DNA of 32,582 nucleotides, taken from contig JAFGUF010000023.1 in NCBI GenBank assembly GCA_016938675.1, positions 1 through 32,582 of the forward strand. The letters are read 5' to 3'. The notes below the pieces were generated by a model. The model did no database searches. It had not been told where the DNA came from and saw only the letters and a list, made by a program, of their open reading frames with translations. Of the stretch, positions 3,148 through 30,659 are shown in pieces; the stretch's first letter is position 1, and the number at the start of each line of letters is the position of its first letter. This DNA is from Clostridia bacterium (GTDB lineage Bacteria > Bacillota > Clostridia > Christensenellales > UMGS416). A program made the translations under genes and the position numbers.

Positions 3148-5562
3148 TTATTTTTTTAATAAAAGCGAAATACCCCTAAACAGCCTTCTGTTTGCAAGGG
3201 CCGCAATTGCCTCCGTTATGTATGGCGGCGTTCCGCTTCCTGTCATCATGCCAAATGATTTTAGAGGCATCTCTTTTGCGATATTAACCATCATTACATA
3301 CGTTGTGTAGTCCCTGTCTCCAGTTTCTGAGGTAAGCATTTTCTTCAGCTGACTGCTGACTACTTTGTTTAGAACCTTTCCTGCCAGAGTCTTCTGTATA
3401 TCCGTAAGCGTTGAATTGGCGTCATACGGCGCTTTTTTGTCCCTTTTCCTTGGCGGGAGCTTTCTTCTCAGCAGTTTTTCAAAATCGCACTCGTCTATTT
3501 CTAGTGTTTCATTCTTAAGGTTGTAATAGCACTCAAGCTCTTTCCTATAATCAGGCGTCTCAATGTCATCCTTTGCATCAATTTTTATTTCGCCATCCAG
3601 CCTTATATCTCTTGATGAGCTGCCTATAAGCACACCATATGTTCCGCTCTCAGCATGCCAGTCTTTAATATTGATATTATAATACGCAAATGAACGCTTA
3701 TTAAGACTGATCTCAACGCTTTTCTTTTCGCCCTTCTTCAGAAATACTTTCGTAAATCCTTTCAGTTCCTTTTCAGCTTTGAAAATTACTGATTCGTTGT
3801 TCTTGATATATAATTGTGCTATTTCTGCTCCGTCATACTCTCCAATGTTTTCTATATCAAATGATACAATATAGTCGAAGTCAGCTTTTTTCTTTATTCT
3901 CAGATTAGTATACTTGAATTTTGTATAGCTTAATCCAAATCCAAAGGGAAAGAGAACATCTTTTTTCGCTGTGTCATAATATCTATAGCCGACATATATG
4001 CTTTCTCTGTATTCTACGCTCGTTTGGTAACCCGGAAAATAATTGTATGAGGAATTATCTTCAAGCTTAATTGGAAATGTCTCTGCCAATTTTCCTGAAG
4101 GACACACGTCCCCGAAAAGAATATCAATTATTGCTCCTGCCCCAGCCTGTCCGTGAAGATACCCTTCCAGAACTGCTACTGTGCTTTCAATCCAAGGCAT
4201 TGCAACCGGAGCTCCATTAGCCAGCACAACAATTATTTTGTTGTTTACTTTGCTGACTGCTTCAATTAACGCAATCTGATTGGCAGGTATGTCTAGAGTA
4301 TTTCTGTCGAATCCCTCTGATTCATATGCGGCAGTTAGCCCTGCATACAGCAAAACAAACTCGTGCTCTTTCGCTATATTCACTGCTTCTTGGATTAGGT
4401 CTTCTTCTATTTCGTCGGTTTTTATTGAATACCCCTTTGCGTATTCGAAAAAATAACCTCTTTCTTTCATTACGTCGAATGCATTGTCCATTTTGCTGGG
4501 GTTAATCAGGCTTGAACCCGCCCCCTGATAGCGCGGTACTTTAGCAAATTCACCAATCAAGGCTATATCGCTGTTTTTCTGCAATGGCAGTGTATTATCG
4601 TTTTTCAGCAGCACTGCTGACTGCTCAACAATTTCTTTAGCCAGCTGATGATGCGCCTCCGCATCGTATTTATATCCGTCATTAATAGATTCCTGAGACT
4701 TCAGAATTAATGTGACTACATTCTCTACAGCCTTGTCTAGGTCTTCAATCTTTAGCTCGCCGTCATTTACAGCCTTTATTATAGCTCGAGTGTTTTTCGG
4801 TCCGCTTGCCGGCATCTCAAGATCAAGACCGGATTTTATGCCCTCTGCCCTGTTGTTTACCGCACCCCAGTCAGTCATCACAAGGCCGTCATAGCCCCAC
4901 TCGCCGCGCAGAACATCCGTCAGCAGCCTTTTGTTTTCGCTGAGATATTCGCCATCAACTTTGTTATACGAGCACATCAAAGTCCATGGATTTGCCTGCT
5001 TAACGCATTTTTCAAATCCTGCCAGGTATATTTCTCTCTGTGCTCTTTCATCAACCACTGCGTCTATTGTCATACGCAGTTTTTCCTGATTATTCATTAC
5101 GTAGTGCTTAAGTGAAGTACCTATGTTTTTGCTCTGCACTCCTTTTACAAAGGCCGCCGCCATTTCTCCGGTCTGGAACGGATCTTCAGAAAAGTATTCG
5201 AAATTCCTGCCGCATAATGGTGACCTTTTTATGTTCGCTCCCGGGCCTAGAACTACAGATACCTTTTCCTGAAGGCACTCCTCGGCAATTGCTTCACCCA
5301 TTTTTTCAAGCAAATCTATATCCCATGAGCTAGCTGTAGTGCATGCAGTTGGAAAGCACGTAGATGGCACGCTATCATTCAGCCCTGCCTTCTCCGACTC
5401 CACCTGCTCCTTGCGCAGCCCATGAGGCCCGTCTGCAACCATTATATCCCCAAGTCCCAGTCTTTCAACTGAAACCAAATGCCAAAAATCTTTTCCCATG
5501 CATAATGCTGCCTTCTCCTCAAGTGTCAGCTTTGATACTATTTCTTTTGCTCTATCAGCCAT
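3148..5562 (-). CDS. Glycoside hydrolase family 3 beta-glucosidase
   Basis: Full GH3 architecture is present: the N-terminal barrel (about 1-290) with the KH motif at 152-153 and the nucleophile Asp231 in VMTDWGA, and the alpha/beta sandwich (about 310-545) with SEGFDR, where Glu416 is the likely acid/base. A fibronectin-III-like domain (about 555-660) and a 140-residue helical tail of the kind seen in clostridial GH3 enzymes complete it. No signal peptide is present, so it acts in the cytoplasm on imported beta-glucosides. The NagZ-specific HxG loop is not seen, which argues against beta-N-acetylglucosaminidase. The ATG follows AAAGGAG at seven bases. The upstream rhamnose-isomerase-like gene ends in its own terminator, so the GH3 gene probably has its own weak promoter (TATAAT close to the start). 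Sugar specificity is not determined. Confidence 0.92.
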   Translation of the reverse strand: MADRAKEIVSKLTLEEKAALCMGKDFWHLVSVERLGLGDIMVADGPHGLRKEQVESEKAGLNDSVPSTCFPTACTTASSWDIDLLEKMGEAIAEECLQEKVSVVLGPGANIKRSPLCGRNFEYFSEDPFQTGEMAAAFVKGVQSKNIGTSLKHYVMNNQEKLRMTIDAVVDERAQREIYLAGFEKCVKQANPWTLMCSYNKVDGEYLSENKRLLTDVLRGEWGYDGLVMTDWGAVNNRAEGIKSGLDLEMPASGPKNTRAIIKAVNDGELKIEDLDKAVENVVTLILKSQESINDGYKYDAEAHHQLAKEIVEQSAVLLKNDNTLPLQKNSDIALIGEFAKVPRYQGAGSSLINPSKMDNAFDVMKERGYFFEYAKGYSIKTDEIEEDLIQEAVNIAKEHEFVLLYAGLTAAYESEGFDRNTLDIPANQIALIEAVSKVNNKIIVVLANGAPVAMPWIESTVAVLEGYLHGQAGAGAIIDILFGDVCPSGKLAETFPIKLEDNSSYNYFPGYQTSVEYRESIYVGYRYYDTAKKDVLFPFGFGLSYTKFKYTNLRIKKKADFDYIVSFDIENIGEYDGAEIAQLYIKNNESVIFKAEKELKGFTKVFLKKGEKKSVEISLNKRSFAYYNINIKDWHAESGTYGVLIGSSSRDIRLDGEIKIDAKDDIETPDYRKELECYYNLKNETLEIDECDFEKLLRRKLPPRKRDKKAPYDANSTLTDIQKTLAGKVLNKVVSSQLKKMLTSETGDRDYTTYVMMVNIAKEMPLKSFGMMTGSGTPPYITEAIAALANRRLFRGISLLLKK

Positions 5563-5621: not shown

Positions 5622-5648
5622 AAAAAAGAGGATATAATGATACCCTCT
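5622..5648 (-). terminator. Terminator of the rhamnose-isomerase-like gene
   Basis: On the minus strand AGAGGGTAT and ATATCCTCT form nine pairs (one G-U) around the loop CATT, followed by six T. It begins a few bases after the stop at 5655 and separates this gene from the GH3 gene downstream. Confidence 0.85.
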
Positions 5649-5654
5649 CGTTTT

Positions 5655-6857
5655 TTAGCCGCTCATGTGGTTTCCCGAGTCCAGCCATTCCATCCCGACA
5701 GGCACATTCATAATTAAGCAGAAATAATCCCACACCGCCCCGAAAGGATATGTATTGATCTCATCAATTAATGCCTGCTTTGTGCTGTAATCCTCAGCTG
5801 CATCGCAACGCTTTAAGTATTCGCCTGGCTCAAGAAGGGCCGTTAAATATGCTTTCTGCATTGCGCGAGCTCCCAATACCCAATTTTTCACCTTGCCTAG
5901 TTCGTCTGCCTTTGTTTTAAAATCCAGGCAAATCTGCACTCTTTCCAGCAAATTATTATGCACTATATGCGTTGCTAGATTAATAGTAGTGTCATTAAGG
6001 GTTATCATATTATCTTTGCTGCTTCCCGGAAGCAGATTTACTATTATTTTATCCGAGAATGAAGAAGCAGAATTAATTTTCTGATATATTTCCTTTTCAT
6101 CGCTTGTTTCTGATATCTCAACTGTTGTATAAAGGTTATTTTTAACTGAATAATTTACGCAGAAATTTTCATTAACAAGAGGCATAATGCTGCGGTCGCA
6201 GCTATTAAGCCCCGTAACAAGCGAATCTTTAACAAAATTCTTGTTTCTTTTTTCAGCGTATATTTTATTAAGGGAATCAATCAGCAGCTCGTGGGAAGCT
6301 ACGCTCTCCACAGGGACGCTCTCAAAGAAGTCATTAATGCTTATTGTCGTAATACATTCACTTCCAAGTTGCTGCCCTATATATTCGCCCACTATCCTGC
6401 AGCGCTGGCAATGCTCCACCCAAAAATAACGTAAATCCTTATTTAAATTTGCAAGGGCAAAACCTTTATCGGATTTTTCATGCCTCAGCATAGATGTAAA
6501 TAAATCAATACCGCAAGTGTTGACTTTTGCCCAGCTTATCCATTTTTCATAGTGGCATGCTTCGATTTCGTCAAGTTCAACATATTCTTCTGTGTCCATG
6601 TGCAGCGCATTAACACAGACCCTGTGTTTTCCGGGTATCATTTTCAGCGCTTTTTCCAAACTCTGACGCACCTTTGGCGAGCTCCTGTGTTCGCTCCTGT
6701 AGTCGGATGTGTCATTTCTGTTTTCTATGTCTATTGCATCACAGCACTTCAGTGAAAAAACGACTTTTTTCAGTTTTTCGAGAGCATCCTCAGTGTCTAT
6801 CCCTATCTCGTTGTACTTCTCTTTAGCGCTTTTATAATTTTCTGTAACTAAACCCAT
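5655..6857 (-). CDS. L-rhamnose isomerase-fold protein, catalytic residues lost (probable pseudoenzyme)
   Basis: The frame matches L-rhamnose isomerase (RhaA) from end to end: ALEKLKK (25-31), LEKALKMIPGKHRV (67-80), GIDLF..HEKSDKGF (116-133), ERVQICLDF (305-313), WVLGARAMQKAYLTALLEP (326-344) and TYPFGAVWDYFC (369-380). The segments that carry RhaA metal and substrate ligands are rewritten. CWQGDD became CCDAID (38-43), NIWIPDG became TISINDF (171-177), and the SESY segment and the GHFHPTE motif are absent. WDSDH became SKDN (280-283), and LDFFDAS became LDFKTKA (311-317). The gene is nonetheless an undamaged 400 codons with GGAG before ATG, a TATAAT box at 6881-6886 and its own terminator. 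No rhamnulokinase or aldolase gene is nearby. I infer a non-catalytic binding, scaffold or regulatory protein; a new reaction is possible. Confidence 0.85.
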   Translation of the reverse strand: MGLVTENYKSAKEKYNEIGIDTEDALEKLKKVVFSLKCCDAIDIENRNDTSDYRSEHRSSPKVRQSLEKALKMIPGKHRVCVNALHMDTEEYVELDEIEACHYEKWISWAKVNTCGIDLFTSMLRHEKSDKGFALANLNKDLRYFWVEHCQRCRIVGEYIGQQLGSECITTISINDFFESVPVESVASHELLIDSLNKIYAEKRNKNFVKDSLVTGLNSCDRSIMPLVNENFCVNYSVKNNLYTTVEISETSDEKEIYQKINSASSFSDKIIVNLLPGSSKDNMITLNDTTINLATHIVHNNLLERVQICLDFKTKADELGKVKNWVLGARAMQKAYLTALLEPGEYLKRCDAAEDYSTKQALIDEINTYPFGAVWDYFCLIMNVPVGMEWLDSGNHMSG

Positions 6858-7042
6858 TTAACACTCCAACCTGTAAAACTATTATACATTATTCTACTAC
6901 TGATTATTTAATTTTACAATAGCGAGTCCCACGAAAAATCACAAAAGCAGATAACATTTTGAGCCATTCTTATTATATCGGCTAAAAAACTAATTTATTT
7001 TCGCTTTGCACTACCCGCATATTCAAATCAGTCGCTTAGTCC

Positions 7043-12580: not shown

Positions 12581-15577
12581 TTATCTTTTCTGCTTTTCTT
12601 TATAAATTATCCCCTCTGATGTTCCGGCATCAATCTTAACAATAAAAGGATTGTCGCTTCTGATAAGTTTCACATGTTCTGTTTCCTTGTATGCCCTCTC
12701 GCTTCTCAGCCTATCCCAGTCTACATATTCATTGCTTGTTTTCATAGCATTGATATGAAAATAACCCATTCTCAATGATGTAAGATTATGATAGAAGTGA
12801 CTGCCAAGTGATGGCTCAGCCTGCAGGTTGACAATGTCGTTTTCGACAACAACCATCGCCTGGGACATCTGCGCCCATGTCAGGGGAATGCCCAGCCATC
12901 TGTCATATGTGCCCACGCGTCCGAATCCAGAAAGTATGCATTTTCTGCCTTCATCAAATAGAAGTTTATTCAGGTATTCTATTTCTTTAGCGATATTTTC
13001 AGTCTCTTTAATGTCGAACTTTTCAGGGTCAACATAGATCATATCATATATACCATTGTAAACACCGTTTCCAATGGTATGGGCACTTCTTGCATAGGCA
13101 TTCTGCTTCTCTTCTTCTGATATTTTAGTCTGTACCGACTCGCTTCCGACAACCATAGGGCGAACTTGCAGGAAATAAAATTGCTTCGGCTTTGAATCAT
13201 CTTCCGGGAAATTTACAGCGAATTCTATCTCCACATCGCATCCGAATGCGCGCTTCCCTAGGGCAAGCATATCAATGATTACCTTATTGAGATTGACCTG
13301 ATGCTGCTTTAGTATCGGCGCGAAAGTTATAACTTTTGGCCCTTCGAAATTTACATTGTCAATTATTCTGTCATTTTCCGGTGAATATGTAGACGCAACA
13401 TACCTGAATGAATTGCTGGCCTCAAGCTCAGATACAGGTAGCGTTGCATAGCAGCTGGATTCCTTTATCATCCGCCTGTCTTTCATATCCTCATTATTAA
13501 CATAGATATCCTTTGTCTTCTCCAAATCCAATGCATAAAAACTAGATTGCAGTTTTTCAATGAATTCCCTCGGCCCTGAATATGGAGGCGGCTTTTTAGG
13601 ATATGTTGGGCTGTATCTGTAGACTTTGCCTCCCTCGGCTATTAATCTGCCAAACCCCAGTGCTATGCTGACGGTGCCGTCCTTAGGCTGAATATTAGAA
13701 TACGGATAGAAATTATATGACTGTGCAACGCCTGATATGAGAGGATAAAAATAATTTTCATGCTGCTGACCGACAAGTTCCTGTATTATTACAGCCATTT
13801 TCTCCTCTTCAATGCGAAGATCTGCATTCTTTGCATACTGCTTTGGCGAATTATAGAAAACTGAGCTGTAGACAAGACGTACGCTGTCGCAAATATGCTT
13901 CAGCCTTATTTCAATGTCCGGGTCGTTATTGGGAATGATATAGGTATTATATATGCCCGCGAATGGCAATGTCTGCGAATCTTCCAGTATGCTCGATGAG
14001 CGGACAGCCAAAGGAGAATTTATCTTTTCTGCAAGCTTACGTAAATCGTTTTTTATCTTTTCCGGCAGATCCGCCTGCAGGAATCTTTGCGCAATTGCGT
14101 CCTCGTCATTTGTGCCCATTGCGAATTCGTACAGATTATTTGCCTCTACAAAATCATCAAATGCATCTGCGCATATTACGAAAGTCAAAGGAATTAAGAC
14201 TTGTATGTTCTCGTATTTATTTTGAATACTGTTCTGCTTGATAATGTGGTTTAGGAAGGCAATGCCTCTGGCCTTTCCACCCAATGAGCCGCTGCCTATT
14301 TTAAGGAAAGCATTTTCTATCCCCAGCTTTGTGGAGTCGAATTCAAGTATTTCTCCGCTCCTGTAGTTTTTGAGGTATGACTGAATTTTATATAGTATTA
14401 TTTCTCGCAGTTCTTCAAGGTCTGTGTAATTACGAATATCTATTTTTCGCAGTTCATTCGCTATTTCAAATGCTGTTCTTGCCCTGAACCATCTGGAAAA
14501 ATGATTGTGCAGTCCGTGATAATACAAGCTTGCAGACGGTATGGTCTTTACCTGATAGATAAATTCCTCAATATCAATTGCCTTTCCCAGCACCTCTCCA
14601 TTCGCATAGCGAAAAACAAACTCTCCAAAGCCATATTCATCAAGTACAGATTTTCTAATATCATATAGAAGATTCGGGGAGTTTTTGTCAAGAAAGCTGA
14701 TTTTCAGTTTTTCAGCCTTTTCCCTGTTCTGCTCCTCTTCGGACTGCATAAGCACTGGTATGTCGGGAATAGTTTTCTTTATTAATTTAATCAGCTCTAT
14801 TCCTGCCTCGGAGTACATGTCTCCGTCTTTAGGAAATCTTACATCTGTTATCACGCCCAGAAGGTTTTCTTTGTGCTTATTAATGGCATCAACTGCCTCT
14901 TCATATGTCTCCGCAAGAATAATTTTCGGCCTTGCACGTACACGCAGCAGCTTATTTGCTGTGTTTTCCGCATGAACAACAAGGTAACGTGTCTGTTTCA
15001 TGAGTTCAGCATATATAATTGATAAAAACTGTGAATAATAAGCAGGAGAATCCTCAACAACTAATATTACCTGAATCCCCTGGCTGCAGTCATCATCTAG
15101 GTTCTTTTTGTCCTCAACATATTTAATAACAGCAAGTAATATGTTGCTCTCGCCCGACCAATGGAACACTCTGTCAATGCTTGGATTTTCCCTTACCTGC
15201 TTTATGATTTCAGGCGTCAGCCTTTCGTAGCTAAGCATCACGATAGGCAGGCTGGGATGCCCTGCCTTCACCTTGTCGCAGAAGTCGAAAACATTGGTCT
15301 CGCCAATATGCGACATTACTATTACCATATCGTAGTTTCGCTTTCTTAGCGCGGAATAGGCATCCTCTACGCGTATAACCCTTTTTATGCGCGGAACATA
15401 ATAGATGCTCAGGTCATAATACTCATTGTATATCCGTTCGGCCAGTCTGCCGTCCTCTTCCAGAACAAAGCCGTCATACTCTGTTGACACTATCAGTATC
15501 TCACGTACGCGGAATTTCATCAGGTCATGAAAACTTAGTGGCTTTTGCTGGCTTATGATTTCATTGTTATCAATCAT
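12581..15577 (-). CDS. Tandem receiver domains fused to a PPDK/PEP-synthase ATP-grasp domain
   Basis: Residues 25-157 form a receiver-like domain lacking the phospho-acceptor (MVIVMSHIGET where the Asp should be, and no switch Lys). Residues 168-312 form a second receiver with all key positions: Glu175-Asp176, Asp245 in VITDVRF, Ser279 and Lys298. From about 425 an ATP-grasp domain of the PPDK/PEP synthase N-terminal type follows, with GSLGGKARG (430-438), AVRSSS..LPFAG (524-541), GFGRLIAEGG (641-650), VEIEF (782-786) and LQVRP (803-807). The phosphohistidine swivel domain and the PEP/pyruvate barrel are missing; about 190 residues of family-specific sequence with GSHFYHNL replace them. It therefore cannot be a normal dikinase. 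A phosphorelay-controlled ATP-dependent phosphotransfer or signalling role is inference. Similar proteins, uncharacterised, are known in other anaerobes. AAGGA lies seven bases before the ATG. Confidence 0.85.
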   Translation of the reverse strand: MIDNNEIISQQKPLSFHDLMKFRVREILIVSTEYDGFVLEEDGRLAERIYNEYYDLSIYYVPRIKRVIRVEDAYSALRKRNYDMVIVMSHIGETNVFDFCDKVKAGHPSLPIVMLSYERLTPEIIKQVRENPSIDRVFHWSGESNILLAVIKYVEDKKNLDDDCSQGIQVILVVEDSPAYYSQFLSIIYAELMKQTRYLVVHAENTANKLLRVRARPKIILAETYEEAVDAINKHKENLLGVITDVRFPKDGDMYSEAGIELIKLIKKTIPDIPVLMQSEEEQNREKAEKLKISFLDKNSPNLLYDIRKSVLDEYGFGEFVFRYANGEVLGKAIDIEEFIYQVKTIPSASLYYHGLHNHFSRWFRARTAFEIANELRKIDIRNYTDLEELREIILYKIQSYLKNYRSGEILEFDSTKLGIENAFLKIGSGSLGGKARGIAFLNHIIKQNSIQNKYENIQVLIPLTFVICADAFDDFVEANNLYEFAMGTNDEDAIAQRFLQADLPEKIKNDLRKLAEKINSPLAVRSSSILEDSQTLPFAGIYNTYIIPNNDPDIEIRLKHICDSVRLVYSSVFYNSPKQYAKNADLRIEEEKMAVIIQELVGQQHENYFYPLISGVAQSYNFYPYSNIQPKDGTVSIALGFGRLIAEGGKVYRYSPTYPKKPPPYSGPREFIEKLQSSFYALDLEKTKDIYVNNEDMKDRRMIKESSCYATLPVSELEASNSFRYVASTYSPENDRIIDNVNFEGPKVITFAPILKQHQVNLNKVIIDMLALGKRAFGCDVEIEFAVNFPEDDSKPKQFYFLQVRPMVVGSESVQTKISEEEKQNAYARSAHTIGNGVYNGIYDMIYVDPEKFDIKETENIAKEIEYLNKLLFDEGRKCILSGFGRVGTYDRWLGIPLTWAQMSQAMVVVENDIVNLQAEPSLGSHFYHNLTSLRMGYFHINAMKTSNEYVDWDRLRSERAYKETEHVKLIRSDNPFIVKIDAGTSEGIIYKEKQKR

Positions 15578-19739: not shown

Positions 19740-20987
19740 TTATTCTGAAAGCAGCCTTTTTTCGCCTTCCAGTTCAGTTATCGGCTTGATATTCTGAGAA
19801 ATTTCCAAAGTACCCATGAATTCACCCAGCTTGTTTCTTACAGCGAAATATCTGATATATACAAATAATCCGCCCATTCTGATCCAGAAATCTTCATGGT
19901 CCTTTTTTCCGCTCCGCAGGTCCTCTACTATCTGCTCCACAATGTGCACGCTCTTTGGCGGATGGCAGTTTTTCACTTCACGTCCTATTATAGTCTTTGG
20001 TCTTTCAAATATTCTTTCCTTGCCCTGAGTAAAGTATTTCACCCTGTTGTCCGCCCCCACAAATGTCATATCAATTGGTACAGTATTCAAAATGGCATTC
20101 AGCTCTTCTGCACTCAGGCTGCCTGCATCGAATTCTATTTGTGAGCTGCTGTTTAGCGAAGCAGAAGATGCCTTGCCTGTCTCTTTTTCTCTTGCTGCTT
20201 TCTCAATTTCATTCGAATCTGTTTTCCATCTGCCTACCTCACCTATCAAAGTGTAGCCTATTTCCTCGCTAGAGCCTTCAATTTCTACCCATTCATCCGT
20301 AGTAAATTTTTCTATGATCATCGGAATCATTATATTTTCTTCCTTGAAAATCATCTCTTTTACTCGCTCTGTAATAGTTGCGAGTTCTTCTTTAGATACT
20401 TCACCATCTGACTGCAATTTATTTAGTGCTGATTTTATCAGTTCCCGTATTTCATCATCAACTCCCCACATCACTTTCGGAGGGGCTGTGATGCCGTGCT
20501 TTTCCATATAGGGAAATATCAAATTTTCTTTCCGCTTGTAATGTTTATCTATCGTCGATAGCTTCTGAACGGCAAATAGCAGCGGTTTTCTTGTATGCGC
20601 TGACTTTTCATTAGCGTAGCCTTGCAGCGAATTCGGGATTTCTTCGTCTAAAATCTGTTCTATTGCCCTGTTTTCCATCTTGAAAACATTGAGAGGGTGC
20701 CAATCCTCGCTTTTGCCGAAATGGTTGTAGTCATCTTTGTGTATGTCATCAATGCTCCCCCTAAATACTGCTGAATGAACATCGCAGAGTCTCTGTATTT
20801 CGCTTACAGGCATGCCTTCATCCACCAGTACCTGCTCCATTTCAGTTATTTCAGACGCTGTGACTCCTTTGGTCAATATGCTGAACTCTTCTTTGACCTG
20901 CTCTACTGATGCTCCGTCGTGCAGTTTCATGATTAATTCTTTCAGTTTCTGCTGACGGTACTCCCTGTTATTGATTAATTCGCTCAT
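19740..20987 (-). CDS. DUF438 - hemerythrin-like - PAS protein
   Basis: Residues 1-70 form the DUF438 domain. Residues 82-230 form a hemerythrin-like HHE bundle with candidate iron ligands His97, His149, Glu154, His164 and Glu217 in motifs such as DKHYKRKENLIFPYMEKHG and FKEENIMIP. A PAS domain of the DUF438-associated type (about 292-400) follows, with CHPP at 341-344. Proteins of this make-up in anaerobes are thought to sense or handle O2 or NO; related HHE proteins (ScdA/YtfE) repair iron centres. The ATG at 20985-20987 was chosen because AAGGAGG lies six bases upstream; an in-frame ATG seven codons earlier precedes that site and is unlikely. A CRP/FNR-type operator at -41.5 points to control by a redox or NO-responsive regulator. 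Confidence 0.88.
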   Translation of the reverse strand: MSELINNREYRQQKLKELIMKLHDGASVEQVKEEFSILTKGVTASEITEMEQVLVDEGMPVSEIQRLCDVHSAVFRGSIDDIHKDDYNHFGKSEDWHPLNVFKMENRAIEQILDEEIPNSLQGYANEKSAHTRKPLLFAVQKLSTIDKHYKRKENLIFPYMEKHGITAPPKVMWGVDDEIRELIKSALNKLQSDGEVSKEELATITERVKEMIFKEENIMIPMIIEKFTTDEWVEIEGSSEEIGYTLIGEVGRWKTDSNEIEKAAREKETGKASSASLNSSSQIEFDAGSLSAEELNAILNTVPIDMTFVGADNRVKYFTQGKERIFERPKTIIGREVKNCHPPKSVHIVEQIVEDLRSGKKDHEDFWIRMGGLFVYIRYFAVRNKLGEFMGTLEISQNIKPITELEGEKRLLSE

Positions 20988-21054
20988 TTTTATCCTCCTT
21001 GTCCGCATGTTTGCGTAAAAATGTATTTTGCATTTTTAATTCATTGATGTCTTC

Positions 21055-25840: not shown

Positions 25841-27142
25841 ATGATATATTTGAGGAAAATACTAAAAGTTTTTACTATAGCTTTGGTTGTATGTGTACTT
25901 TTATTTTCTGTTATAAGTGCAAGCGCGGCATATGACCCGCCTATATATACATTCCTTCCTATTCAGACTATAGTTCCAACCCTGCCGCCGCAGTTTACTT
26001 TCTTTACATTTATTCCGTTCATCACGCCGGCTCCTTCGGATTCATCATCTCTTGTATATTTTGAGGACGCACATCTTCAAAATGCTATTGCTGTTGAGCT
26101 GGGAGTCCCTGCAAGTGACTTAACGAAAAATTACCTTAATTCTGTTACCGGAACGCTGGACTTAAGCAGATATGAAATAAGCAAATTGACGGGAATCGAG
26201 GAGCTGAAAAACCTTGACAACCTTATATTAAGAAACAATCCGATAGATTCCTACCGTGAGCTAAGGCAGCTGCAATATCTCACCAATCTAGAATACCTGG
26301 ATATCTCCGCCCTCAGCGTTACACAAATCCCAAGTGAAATTGGGAAGCTGACAGGCCTTAAGTACCTAGACATCAGCGCAAACAGGCTGGACACTCTTCC
26401 CAGCGCGCTTGAGGATTTAAGTCTTGACTATCTTGTATGCAACTACTGCTTCTTTGATATAACAGATTCTGCTTTTATAAATACTTTGATGGCATCGACT
26501 TCTGCTGCTGACTATCAGTATCAGCTTCAGAAGGTGGATTTCTACGCTATCTGCCAGACAGCGGGAATTGTAACCCTTAAGTGGGAAGAAATGCCCGATA
26601 TTTATTTCCCAAATGGCGCTGTAGCTCAAATCGAGAGATTCTCCATATGCGAGCCAAATCCGAACGGAAAACAGGGCAACTGGATAGACTCCGTATCAAG
26701 AAATACCACTTCATATACTTTTGATGGATTAAATTCAAGCCAGACATATTCATTTGATATCAGTGTTGACTACTATATTAAGAATACTCAATACGATGGC
26801 AAATTAATAAAGTTCTATGAAAAAGAGCTGTTCCAGCCCATACCGCAGGATACGCCGACTCCAAAGCCGACGGATACACCTGTACCGACAGACACCCCGT
26901 CGCCTACGGATACCCCAACGCCTGAACTTACAGCTGAGCCTACCAGCGCACCAGCGGAGATTATAACGATAAATCCAGGTGAAAATAACAATAATAACAA
27001 TTCATCGAATTCATCGTTCCTGTCAACACTTGTTGTGCTGCTGATTGTGCTTATTGTTGCAATATTCGGCCTTGTAATTGTTCTCTTCCTGCGCACTACA
27101 AAGCCGCCTGTCAGGCCTGATTCACAGGATCCGCCTAAGTAA
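25841..27142 (+). CDS. Secreted, membrane-anchored leucine-rich-repeat protein
   Basis: A 433-residue surface protein. A signal peptide (1-30: basic start, hydrophobic core, SASA cleavage region) is followed by a Pro-rich linker (31-68) and a leucine-rich-repeat block (about 72-200) with repeats such as LTGIEELKNLDNLILRNN and LTGLKYLDISANRLDTLP. A fibronectin-like beta domain (about 230-328) comes next. A stalk of TDTPxPT repeats (337-372), an Asn-run linker (382-387), a membrane helix (393-417) and a short Pro-rich cytoplasmic tail end the protein. The layout suits a cell-wall-spanning binding protein. The ligand is unknown. GAGGT precedes the ATG. It diverges from the Bce-type operon and shares its 190-bp upstream region. 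Confidence 0.85.
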   Translation: MIYLRKILKVFTIALVVCVLLFSVISASAAYDPPIYTFLPIQTIVPTLPPQFTFFTFIPFITPAPSDSSSLVYFEDAHLQNAIAVELGVPASDLTKNYLNSVTGTLDLSRYEISKLTGIEELKNLDNLILRNNPIDSYRELRQLQYLTNLEYLDISALSVTQIPSEIGKLTGLKYLDISANRLDTLPSALEDLSLDYLVCNYCFFDITDSAFINTLMASTSAADYQYQLQKVDFYAICQTAGIVTLKWEEMPDIYFPNGAVAQIERFSICEPNPNGKQGNWIDSVSRNTTSYTFDGLNSSQTYSFDISVDYYIKNTQYDGKLIKFYEKELFQPIPQDTPTPKPTDTPVPTDTPSPTDTPTPELTAEPTSAPAEIITINPGENNNNNNSSNSSFLSTLVVLLIVLIVAIFGLVIVLFLRTTKPPVRPDSQDPPK

Positions 27143-29897: not shown

Positions 29898-30461
29898 CTA
29901 TTTCTTCTCCTCGCTCATTAGTGCGGTATTTTTTAGTGCTTTTGAAAGAGGAATATATAAAACAAATCCCAAAATAGAAATCGGTATCGCCTTTATTAAA
30001 TTGATAGGAATAATTCCCGCTAATATCATAGTCATCTTAGCTGTATGCTCGCCTATTCCCCAAAGCGGAAGGAAAATAAAGTAGTTTGCAACTGCACCTA
30101 CTGCAACCATCGTTATCACTCCGATAACAAGGCCTATAATTAGGCGAGGCAAAGTTTTTTTCTTCTTCATGATGATTGCTGGTGGAAATGTAAGTGCGCA
30201 GCCCACAATTAAATTGGCAAGATTACCGATGCCGCCGGTGCCATCATTTTTGACAAAAAAGTGAATGATGTTCTTTACGAATTCAATTGCCGCAGCTGCC
30301 CATGGGCCCATCAGTATGCCGCCTATCAGCGCAGGCAGGTCTGAAGCCTCAAATTTAAGAAATGGGTATGCCGGCAAAACGGGAATCTCCCAAAGCATCA
30401 AAATAAAGCTTAATGATGCAAGTACGCCGACTGTGACTGTGAATAACAAGTTTTTTTTCAT
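29898..30461 (-). CDS. ribU: Riboflavin ECF transporter S component RibU
   Basis: A 187-residue integral membrane protein of the ECF S-component type with about six helices. It carries the RibU-typical LWEIPVLPAYPFLKFEASDLPALIGGILMGPWAA segment and the later IKNIIHFF-like stretch, here VKNIIHFFVKND. It captures riboflavin and needs the general EcfAA'T module, which is not in the window. The ATG at 30459-30461 follows AGGAGG by seven bases. A longer in-frame reading from 30542 translates the riboswitch itself and is rejected. The FMN riboswitch directly upstream confirms the vitamin specificity. Confidence 0.95.
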   Translation of the reverse strand: MKKNLLFTVTVGVLASLSFILMLWEIPVLPAYPFLKFEASDLPALIGGILMGPWAAAAIEFVKNIIHFFVKNDGTGGIGNLANLIVGCALTFPPAIIMKKKKTLPRLIIGLVIGVITMVAVGAVANYFIFLPLWGIGEHTAKMTMILAGIIPINLIKAIPISILGFVLYIPLSKALKNTALMSEEKK

Positions 30462-30474
30462 AAACTGTCCTCCT

Positions 30475-30502
30475 AAAAAATTCCTAGGAATATGTCCTAG
30501 GA
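30475..30502 (-). terminator. Riboswitch expression-platform terminator
   Basis: Minus strand TCCTAGGA (30495-30502) pairs with a second TCCTAGGA (30482-30489) around a five-base loop. It is followed by six T and then at once by the AGGAGG of ribU. It is placed between aptamer and start codon, as in transcription-terminating FMN switches. Confidence 0.82.
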
Positions 30503-30532
30503 TTTTAAAGGCTTGATTATATAAATAATCGT

Positions 30533-30640
30533 CTTTTCCCATCCAGACTATAACTGTCGGTTTTGGAATTTCACCAAATCAACCTATTAAAGGCTCGCGG
30601 ACTATACCGCCGGTGAGGATTTTCACCTCGCCCCAAAGAC
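30533..30640 (-). promoter_or_regulatory. FMN riboswitch (RFN element)
   Basis: Read on the minus strand, the conserved RFN blocks appear in order: CTTTGGGGCGAGGTGAAAAT, CCTCACCGGCGGTATAGTCC, GCGAGCC, the ATTTGGTGAAATTCC segment, CCGACAGTTATAGTCTGGAT and GGGAAAAG. The aptamer binds FMN and turns off expression of the downstream gene when flavin is plentiful. The terminator at 30475-30502 is the likely expression platform. Confidence 0.96.
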
Positions 30641-30659
30641 ATATTCAAATTATTTGCTA

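Follow-up and report, generated by a model that had tools for sequence, protein, structure and literature searches.

A complete gene in the window, by which we mean the whole 32,582-nucleotide stretch of DNA analysed here, encodes a member of the L-rhamnose isomerase (RhaA) family that has likely lost its rhamnose isomerase capability, judging from its changed metal ligands, sugar contacts and lid; an earlier note on this DNA, which had proposed a non-isomerase, is borne out to that degree. As most of the residues required for the reaction are changed, the gene was probably given another job. The best reading of our data, to which we assign a probability of roughly 0.57, is a repurposed, non-isomerase protein of RhaA fold, with a binding or scaffold role favoured over that of a new enzyme. 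The protein is a candidate pseudoenzyme from one genome, its lack of activity being deduced from its residues. The gene is an intact frame of 400 codons with neither frameshift nor internal stop, as the note had described. Its main features and surroundings are the following:

5655 to 6857, minus strand: RhaA-fold coding sequence, 400 amino acids, stop codon at 5655-5657 (ORF list and translation)
6711 to 6746, minus strand: site of the deleted lid, residues 38-49, where CCDAIDIENRND replaces CWQGDDV...GGIQVTG (alignments; 11 residues missing, gap placement ambiguous)
6012 to 6119, minus strand: codons E247 to D282 with the former ligand positions E247, E250, N274, S280 and D282 (alignment columns and codon positions)
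5922 to 5924, minus strand: codon of D312, a kept ligand position equivalent to E. coli D326 (alignment column and codon position)
6864 to 6867, minus strand: GGAG, putative Shine-Dalgarno-like element 6 nt 5' of the ATG (read from the DNA)
6881 to 6886, minus strand: TATAAT, putative -10-like element, clear -35 element absent (read from the DNA)
5626 to 5649, minus strand: terminator-like hairpin followed by a T run, 5 nt past the stop codon, between the RhaA-fold gene and the GH3 gene
3148 to 5562, minus strand: GH3 glycosidase gene, downstream neighbour on the same strand (Pfam GH3 N, GH3 C and Fn3-like)

The GGAG and TATAAT elements, which may be the ribosome binding site and -10 box of the earlier note, are both readable in the DNA, but a consensus promoter scan selected TTGTAA-17-TAGAAT at 6919-6891 and did not place TATAAT at 6886-6881 among its picks. 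The terminator had been called strong, which was overstated, because the 2-kb region holds two terminator-like sites where 1.3 are expected in shuffled sequences; in addition, only 3 of the 10 pairs of the hairpin found by the scan (5649-5626, loop of 4) are G-C.

A full-length member of the RhaA family

The protein matches Pfam RhaA (PF06134) along the whole domain and far above the curated cut-off (307.3 bits versus 22, E-value 2.6e-91, residues 5-394, model positions 4-405 of 417), which places it in the family. A phmmer search of the PDB gave an RhaA match at 1.7e-71, and the five PDB sequences matched are all L-rhamnose isomerases, from E. coli, Bacillus halodurans and Lactobacillus rhamnosus. 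With RhaA of this E. coli/Bacillus/Lactobacillus type (PF06134, TIGR01748; 1d8w, 3p14, 8jq3) it shares the same full-length homology and two identical metal ligands; its C-terminus is 6-7 residues shorter. Pfam recognised no domain besides RhaA, and NCBIfam added to its two RhaA models nothing but SLATT at an E-value of 0.23, without a recognised DNA-binding or membrane part. A sugar sensor carrying such a part was considered on this basis and rejected.

Both NCBIfam models for L-rhamnose isomerase matched the protein over their full length and missed their cut-offs by a wide margin: 302.6 bits versus 584.95 for the equivalog model TIGR01748 and 299 versus 572 for NF002203. TIGR01748 matched in 118 of the 386 genomes examined from the same order and exceeded its cut-off in 36. 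Near-full-length matches in these genomes (at least 400 of 414 model positions, rows counted by eye) comprised 111 others with 490.0-704.4 bits, compared with the 301.7 bits of the window gene. Many RhaAs of the order score 490-583, below the cut-off, and several of these have intact ligands, so that the size of the score gap weighs more than the miss itself. The family includes seven other genomes; two of them lack an RhaA, and the RhaAs of the remaining five all pass the equivalog cut-off, with 603-704 bits.

One of the nearest relatives, with about 35-37% identity to the window protein, is a canonical RhaA from a genome of the same family (G004, locus L003; about 705 bits to TIGR01748). Unlike the window protein, it has all seven ligands. 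Its gene adjoins frames which we take, from reading their translations, to be kinase-like and aldolase-like.

Altered metal site, sugar contacts and lid

According to the description of the L. rhamnosus enzyme (PMC10908623), the structural metal is bound by residues equivalent to E226, D259, H286 and D326 of the E. coli enzyme, and the catalytic metal by those equivalent to H262, D294 and D296 (L. rhamnosus numbers minus 2). In the order E226, D259, H262, H286, D294, D296 and D326, the window protein reads V, E, E, N, S, D and D. Five of these seven ligands are changed (E226V, D259E, H262E, H286N and D294S) and two are kept (D296 and D326). The residues in six of these columns are E247 (D259), E250 (H262), N274 (H286), S280 (D294), D282 (D296) and D312 (D326). 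The estimate in the earlier note that about two of seven ligands remain thus agrees with the count of identical residues, yet a carboxylate is found at four of the seven positions (E247, E250, D282 and D312), and D259E is a conservative change. Ligands kept at shifted positions, which the note had named as a refuting outcome, did not turn up: in the alignments, the lost ligands are not re-created nearby. Its statement that the catalytic site is erased fits the five changed ligands and is too strong otherwise, for E247, E250, D282, D312 and N274 still occupy ligand positions, and with them a different metal-dependent reaction remains conceivable.

The complete set E, D, H, H, D, D, D is intact in all 128 other aligned RhaA rows (125 distinct). 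These rows consist of 48 from taxon-wise genome searches and the best 80 of at least 574 relatives from a profile scan; the remaining order, class and phylum matches, including loci L141-L149, lie outside this set, and further inactive RhaAs may sit among them.

The same source names His97, Phe138, Trp187, Lys230 and Phe330 as neighbours of the sugar in the L. rhamnosus enzyme and residues 54-65 as the active-site lid loop. All five of these contacts are replaced in the window protein (H95N, F136L, W185S, K228G and F328K in E. coli numbering). The lid loop as delimited there falls within the 11-residue gap of the window protein, and lid positions 55 and 59 are absent. With two of seven ligands, none of five substrate contacts and no lid, the protein does not have the equipment of a functional L-rhamnose isomerase.

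Alignment with RhaA relatives also confirmed the erosion of the catalytic motifs singled out in the earlier note: CWQGDD has become CCDAID, the PDG loop NDF, GHFHPTE SETSDEK and FFDAS FKTKA. Likewise, NLLPGS--SKDN stands in place of HVSRPVRWDSDH. Two assignments in the note had to be corrected. It had counted the second Asp of LDFFDAS as a ligand; that role belongs to the first Asp, still present here, and the lost second Asp is not a ligand. SESY had been regarded as a ligand block, and the Glu ligand sits in DAVESK instead.

Distribution of the losses and simulated decay

The losses are concentrated at the catalytic site. Among columns conserved at 90% or more in 125 RhaA rows (L082, L126 and L034 left out), 9 of 50 are kept near the site, compared with 37 of the 71 that lie farther away (Fisher p 1.4e-4, a generous value because each deleted lid column counts as a separate loss). 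Near the site here means within four residues, in sequence and not in space, of 15 metal-, sugar- or lid-contact positions. Retention is poorest in b5-b6 (2 of 13 columns), around a6/WDSD (2 of 16) and at the lid (4 of 16); it ranks among the highest in the N-terminal helix (4 of 5) and in the C-terminal helices (14 of 22). Taken across its entire length, the protein retains the consensus residue in comparable proportions, 37-49%, whichever conservation class of 40% or more is considered; as read from the alignment, this looks like a broad release from the old constraint, beyond changes at the site alone. Out of 77 near-invariant columns the window protein keeps 28, while L082, L126 and L034, all with intact ligands, keep 52, 69 and 70, respectively.

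Neutral mutation was simulated from two RhaA genes (L003 and L037) to the identity of the window protein, with 60 runs per setting. At full divergence the simulated genes contained 14-21 stop codons on average and never fewer than 6; with no more than 35% of the amino acids changed, every run still carried at least 2, compared with none in the window gene. The core, comparable at 104 positions, had a hydrophobic fraction of 0.885 in the window protein versus 0.65-0.71 (sd 0.035-0.046) in the fully diverged simulations. Runs halted at 65% or 55% identity gave 0.77-0.84, with single runs of up to 0.904, above the value of the window protein, so that the core test taken alone is compatible with a shorter free phase. 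The replacements are also milder: at replaced sites, the mean BLOSUM62 values were -0.25 and -0.17 for the window protein against -0.75 and about -0.66 in the simulations (sd about 0.1). The codon-usage score of the gene (0.084) lies in the range of ten neighbouring genes (0.036-0.108), from which the reference table was itself built, and random synonymous codons gave -0.044 (sd 0.021). Its GC3 of 0.42 is likewise that of the neighbours (0.38-0.46), as against a G+C content of 0.27 in four intergenic stretches.

The absence of stops, codons like those of its neighbours, a largely kept core and losses clustered at the site give the gene an appearance unlike simple decay. On this point the earlier note is supported. 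Classification as a pseudogene fails on the missing stops and on a codon usage and a clustering of losses unlike neutral decay. One may nevertheless imagine a slow loss of the gene, in which rhamnose use is gone, selection is relaxed and the frame is still open by chance or because the release is recent. Such a course would account for the long terminal branch of the protein (3.48 changes per site versus a median of 0.29 in a 67-row tree), for a retention that hardly varies with conservation class (40% or more) and for the unrecognised pathway genes described below, and a genome of the same order (G114) does contain a broken RhaA with an internal TAA, unless this is an assembly error. We nevertheless hold it to be improbable, since every simulation acquired at least two stops, even at 35% amino-acid change, since codon usage and position-specific G+C resemble those of the neighbours, and since the core is kept beyond the neutral expectation at full divergence and the losses cluster at the site.

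Predicted fold

AlphaFold2, supplied with an alignment of 53 other RhaAs, predicted the (beta/alpha)8 RhaA fold with a mean pLDDT of 87.3, and the supplied alignment will have pulled the model toward this fold. The 53 relatives were a redundancy-filtered list of 55 minus L066 and L127; L082 and L126 had been dropped before the filter. Superposition of the model on RhaA of B. halodurans (3p14) gave a Z-score of 48.6 and an rmsd of 1.9 over 379 residues. The predicted protein is accordingly similar in fold to RhaA of E. coli, Bacillus and Lactobacillus, a (beta/alpha)8 barrel with extra C-terminal helices. The model also has the overall fold of the Pseudomonas stutzeri-type L-rhamnose isomerase (2hcv; Z 30.9, rmsd 2.8, 358 residues), to which the window protein is 12% identical. 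A prediction made without an alignment reached a pLDDT of 33 and is uninformative, as it had no control. RhaAs are known to form homotetramers, and the C-terminal helices are better kept than most of the rest of the protein.

After the two RhaA groups, the structural matches were mostly xylose/glucose isomerases. The xylose/glucose isomerase-type barrel hosts varied chemistries. The RhaA barrel could have been neofunctionalised for a different, perhaps metal-dependent reaction, with a hard divalent metal and a larger substrate in the lidless pocket. Asp or Glu at four of the seven ligand positions and Asn at a fifth would suit such an enzyme, as would these structural matches, and the retained helical scaffold is compatible with any folded product. 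We find this doubtful, as E226, D294 and the two His ligands have disappeared and no lost ligand has been re-created nearby in the alignment; moreover, a single sequence defines no conserved new motif.

Neighbouring genes and rhamnose pathway

The source genome (2.62 Mb in 45 contigs, about 96% complete) contains the window gene as the single RhaA found. No rhamnulokinase exceeded its cut-off in this genome, the best match having 55.3 bits versus 528. Four FGGY frames are present, of which three are over the cut-offs for xylulokinase, glycerol kinase and autoinducer-2 kinase, and the fourth (C17) matches xylulokinase below the cut-off. The model TIGR02624 for rhamnulose-1-phosphate aldolase had no match in the source genome; this model passes its cut-off in a single one of 14 control genomes and may therefore overlook other types of aldolase. 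The sole class II aldolase frame fits L-ribulose-5-phosphate 4-epimerase best and fuculose-phosphate aldolase next, both below the cut-offs. Unlike the situation in E. coli, Bacillus and Lactobacillus, rhaB and rhaD are not recognised in this genome, whose RhaA scores far below the equivalog cut-off, and at about 96% completeness pathway genes could fall in a gap. As a separate observation, the below-cut-off xylulokinase-like FGGY frame on contig 17 of G000 (about 142700-146700) lies beside a 350-residue frame, which has two stretches like class II aldolase, and near a glutamate-1-semialdehyde aminomutase-like frame, also below its cut-off.

A GH78 rhamnosidase-type gene is present in the source genome. 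It would suit a protein that still isomerises a sugar, albeit a different one and with a modified metal site, as would the whole-length homology and the two identical ligands plus one conservative change. We judge this very unlikely all the same: both His ligands, E226 and D294 are lost, the sugar contacts are replaced, the lid is missing and the downstream kinase and aldolase are not recognised.

The unusual sequence might also stem from an assembly or binning error, that is, a chimeric or foreign contig, in view of a single draft genome in 45 contigs that is the sole member of its genus in the collection. The gene, however, lies inside a 116-kb contig with a codon usage like that of 10 neighbours, and the genome yielded no second rhaA copy as a potential source of a mix-up; an artefact seems most improbable.

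Upstream of the RhaA-fold gene lies a divergent gene which, from its sequence, we take to be leuS-like. An operon with the downstream GH3 gene was considered; it is possible, but the terminator-like hairpin intervenes and nothing links the two genes. A conserved pairing of GH3 and RhaA found no sign either, as the closest GH3 homologues in two genomes of the family (G005 and G001) are on contigs other than those bearing RhaA, with no RhaA-like frame among the surrounding frames read by eye.

Relatives and orthologue search

Searches of genomes from the family (8), the order (396), the class (391) and the phylum (398), in samples that overlap and, above family level, represent part of larger groups, brought up no orthologue sharing the losses; the case for purifying selection on the new state is accordingly indirect. 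Over the columns compared, the RhaA of one genome of the class is identical to that of Ruminiclostridium hungatei, which makes the source organism clostridial. Six window-specific peptides retrieved 45 stretches from genome contigs and 5 from viral contigs, none of them relatives. A tblastn search of plasmids gave 51 records, all below 60% identity and with 29.6-32.2% among the matches listed. The profile scan of genome contigs gave at least 574 relatives, of which the best 80 all have intact ligands. In the tree, the window protein stands beside L003 without support, and the likelihood rises when it is grouped with L037 instead (p-AU 0.71), so that descent from the family's own rhaA is unsupported. 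The open-licence literature searched contained, in its accessible text, no report of an inactive RhaA or of an RhaA changing function.

Two further observations concern rhaA in the same order. In G114 the gene is in two pieces with an internal TAA (contig 8, 4872-6105), either a broken copy or an assembly error, and G059 and G079 each have two full-length RhaA copies, all four over the equivalog cut-off.

Other features of the window

An FMN riboswitch (30527-30644, minus strand, 117 bits) lies directly upstream of a membrane-protein-like frame of 214 amino acids (29898-30542). This frame matched no NCBIfam family at an E-value of 1e-5 and may, as guessed from its context, be a riboflavin transporter. 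On the minus strand, 12581-15577 encodes a 998-residue protein with a response-regulator-like region and a PEP-synthase/PPDK ATP-binding domain, 19740-21008 a 422-residue protein with DUF438, hemerythrin and PAS domains, possibly an oxygen or redox sensor, and 421-1287 a 288-residue protein with a Cys-rich N-terminal half followed by pentapeptide repeats. On the plus strand, a leucine-rich-repeat protein of 433 residues (25841-27142) carries a stretch rich in Pro and Thr as well as a hydrophobic segment at its C-terminus, and looks surface-protein-like.

Proposed function and significance

For the repurposed, non-isomerase RhaA-fold protein we propose the following course. The rest of the rhamnose pathway would have been lost in the lineage, leaving the ancestral RhaA without a role, and the protein would then have been retained for a new task. 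The lid loop would have been deleted and the five checked sugar-contact side chains replaced, turning the two-metal site into a lidless pocket with E247, E250, D282, D312 and N274. The product would be a folded (beta/alpha)8 protein, probably still oligomeric, that does not isomerise rhamnose and serves, most likely, as a ligand- or protein-binding scaffold made from its own short transcription unit without isomerase catalysis. We infer selection for a new function, and likewise the order of events, the oligomeric state and the nature of the function. The sugar sensor and the partner of another enzyme, given as examples in the earlier note, are conjectural roles. We put it at about even odds that the protein represents a new type derived from the RhaA family, whether it works as a sensor or scaffold without catalysis or as an enzyme whose pocket is all-carboxylate.

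The proposed role resembles that of published proteins which kept a metabolic or peptidase fold and lost catalysis. Those proteins have described binding or regulatory roles, whereas the window protein has neither such a role nor an orthologue in the genomes searched. The re-use of an enzyme fold after the loss of its pathway is a generally familiar kind of event. RhaA, in turn, looks highly uniform, with the same seven ligands in 128 of 128 other rows. The gene is a warning that homology alone does not justify the label L-rhamnose isomerase in the annotation of such genes. Intact, coding-like, far diverged and located in a genome that lacks a recognisable rhamnulokinase, it offers a testable case of a sugar isomerase fold changing its task.
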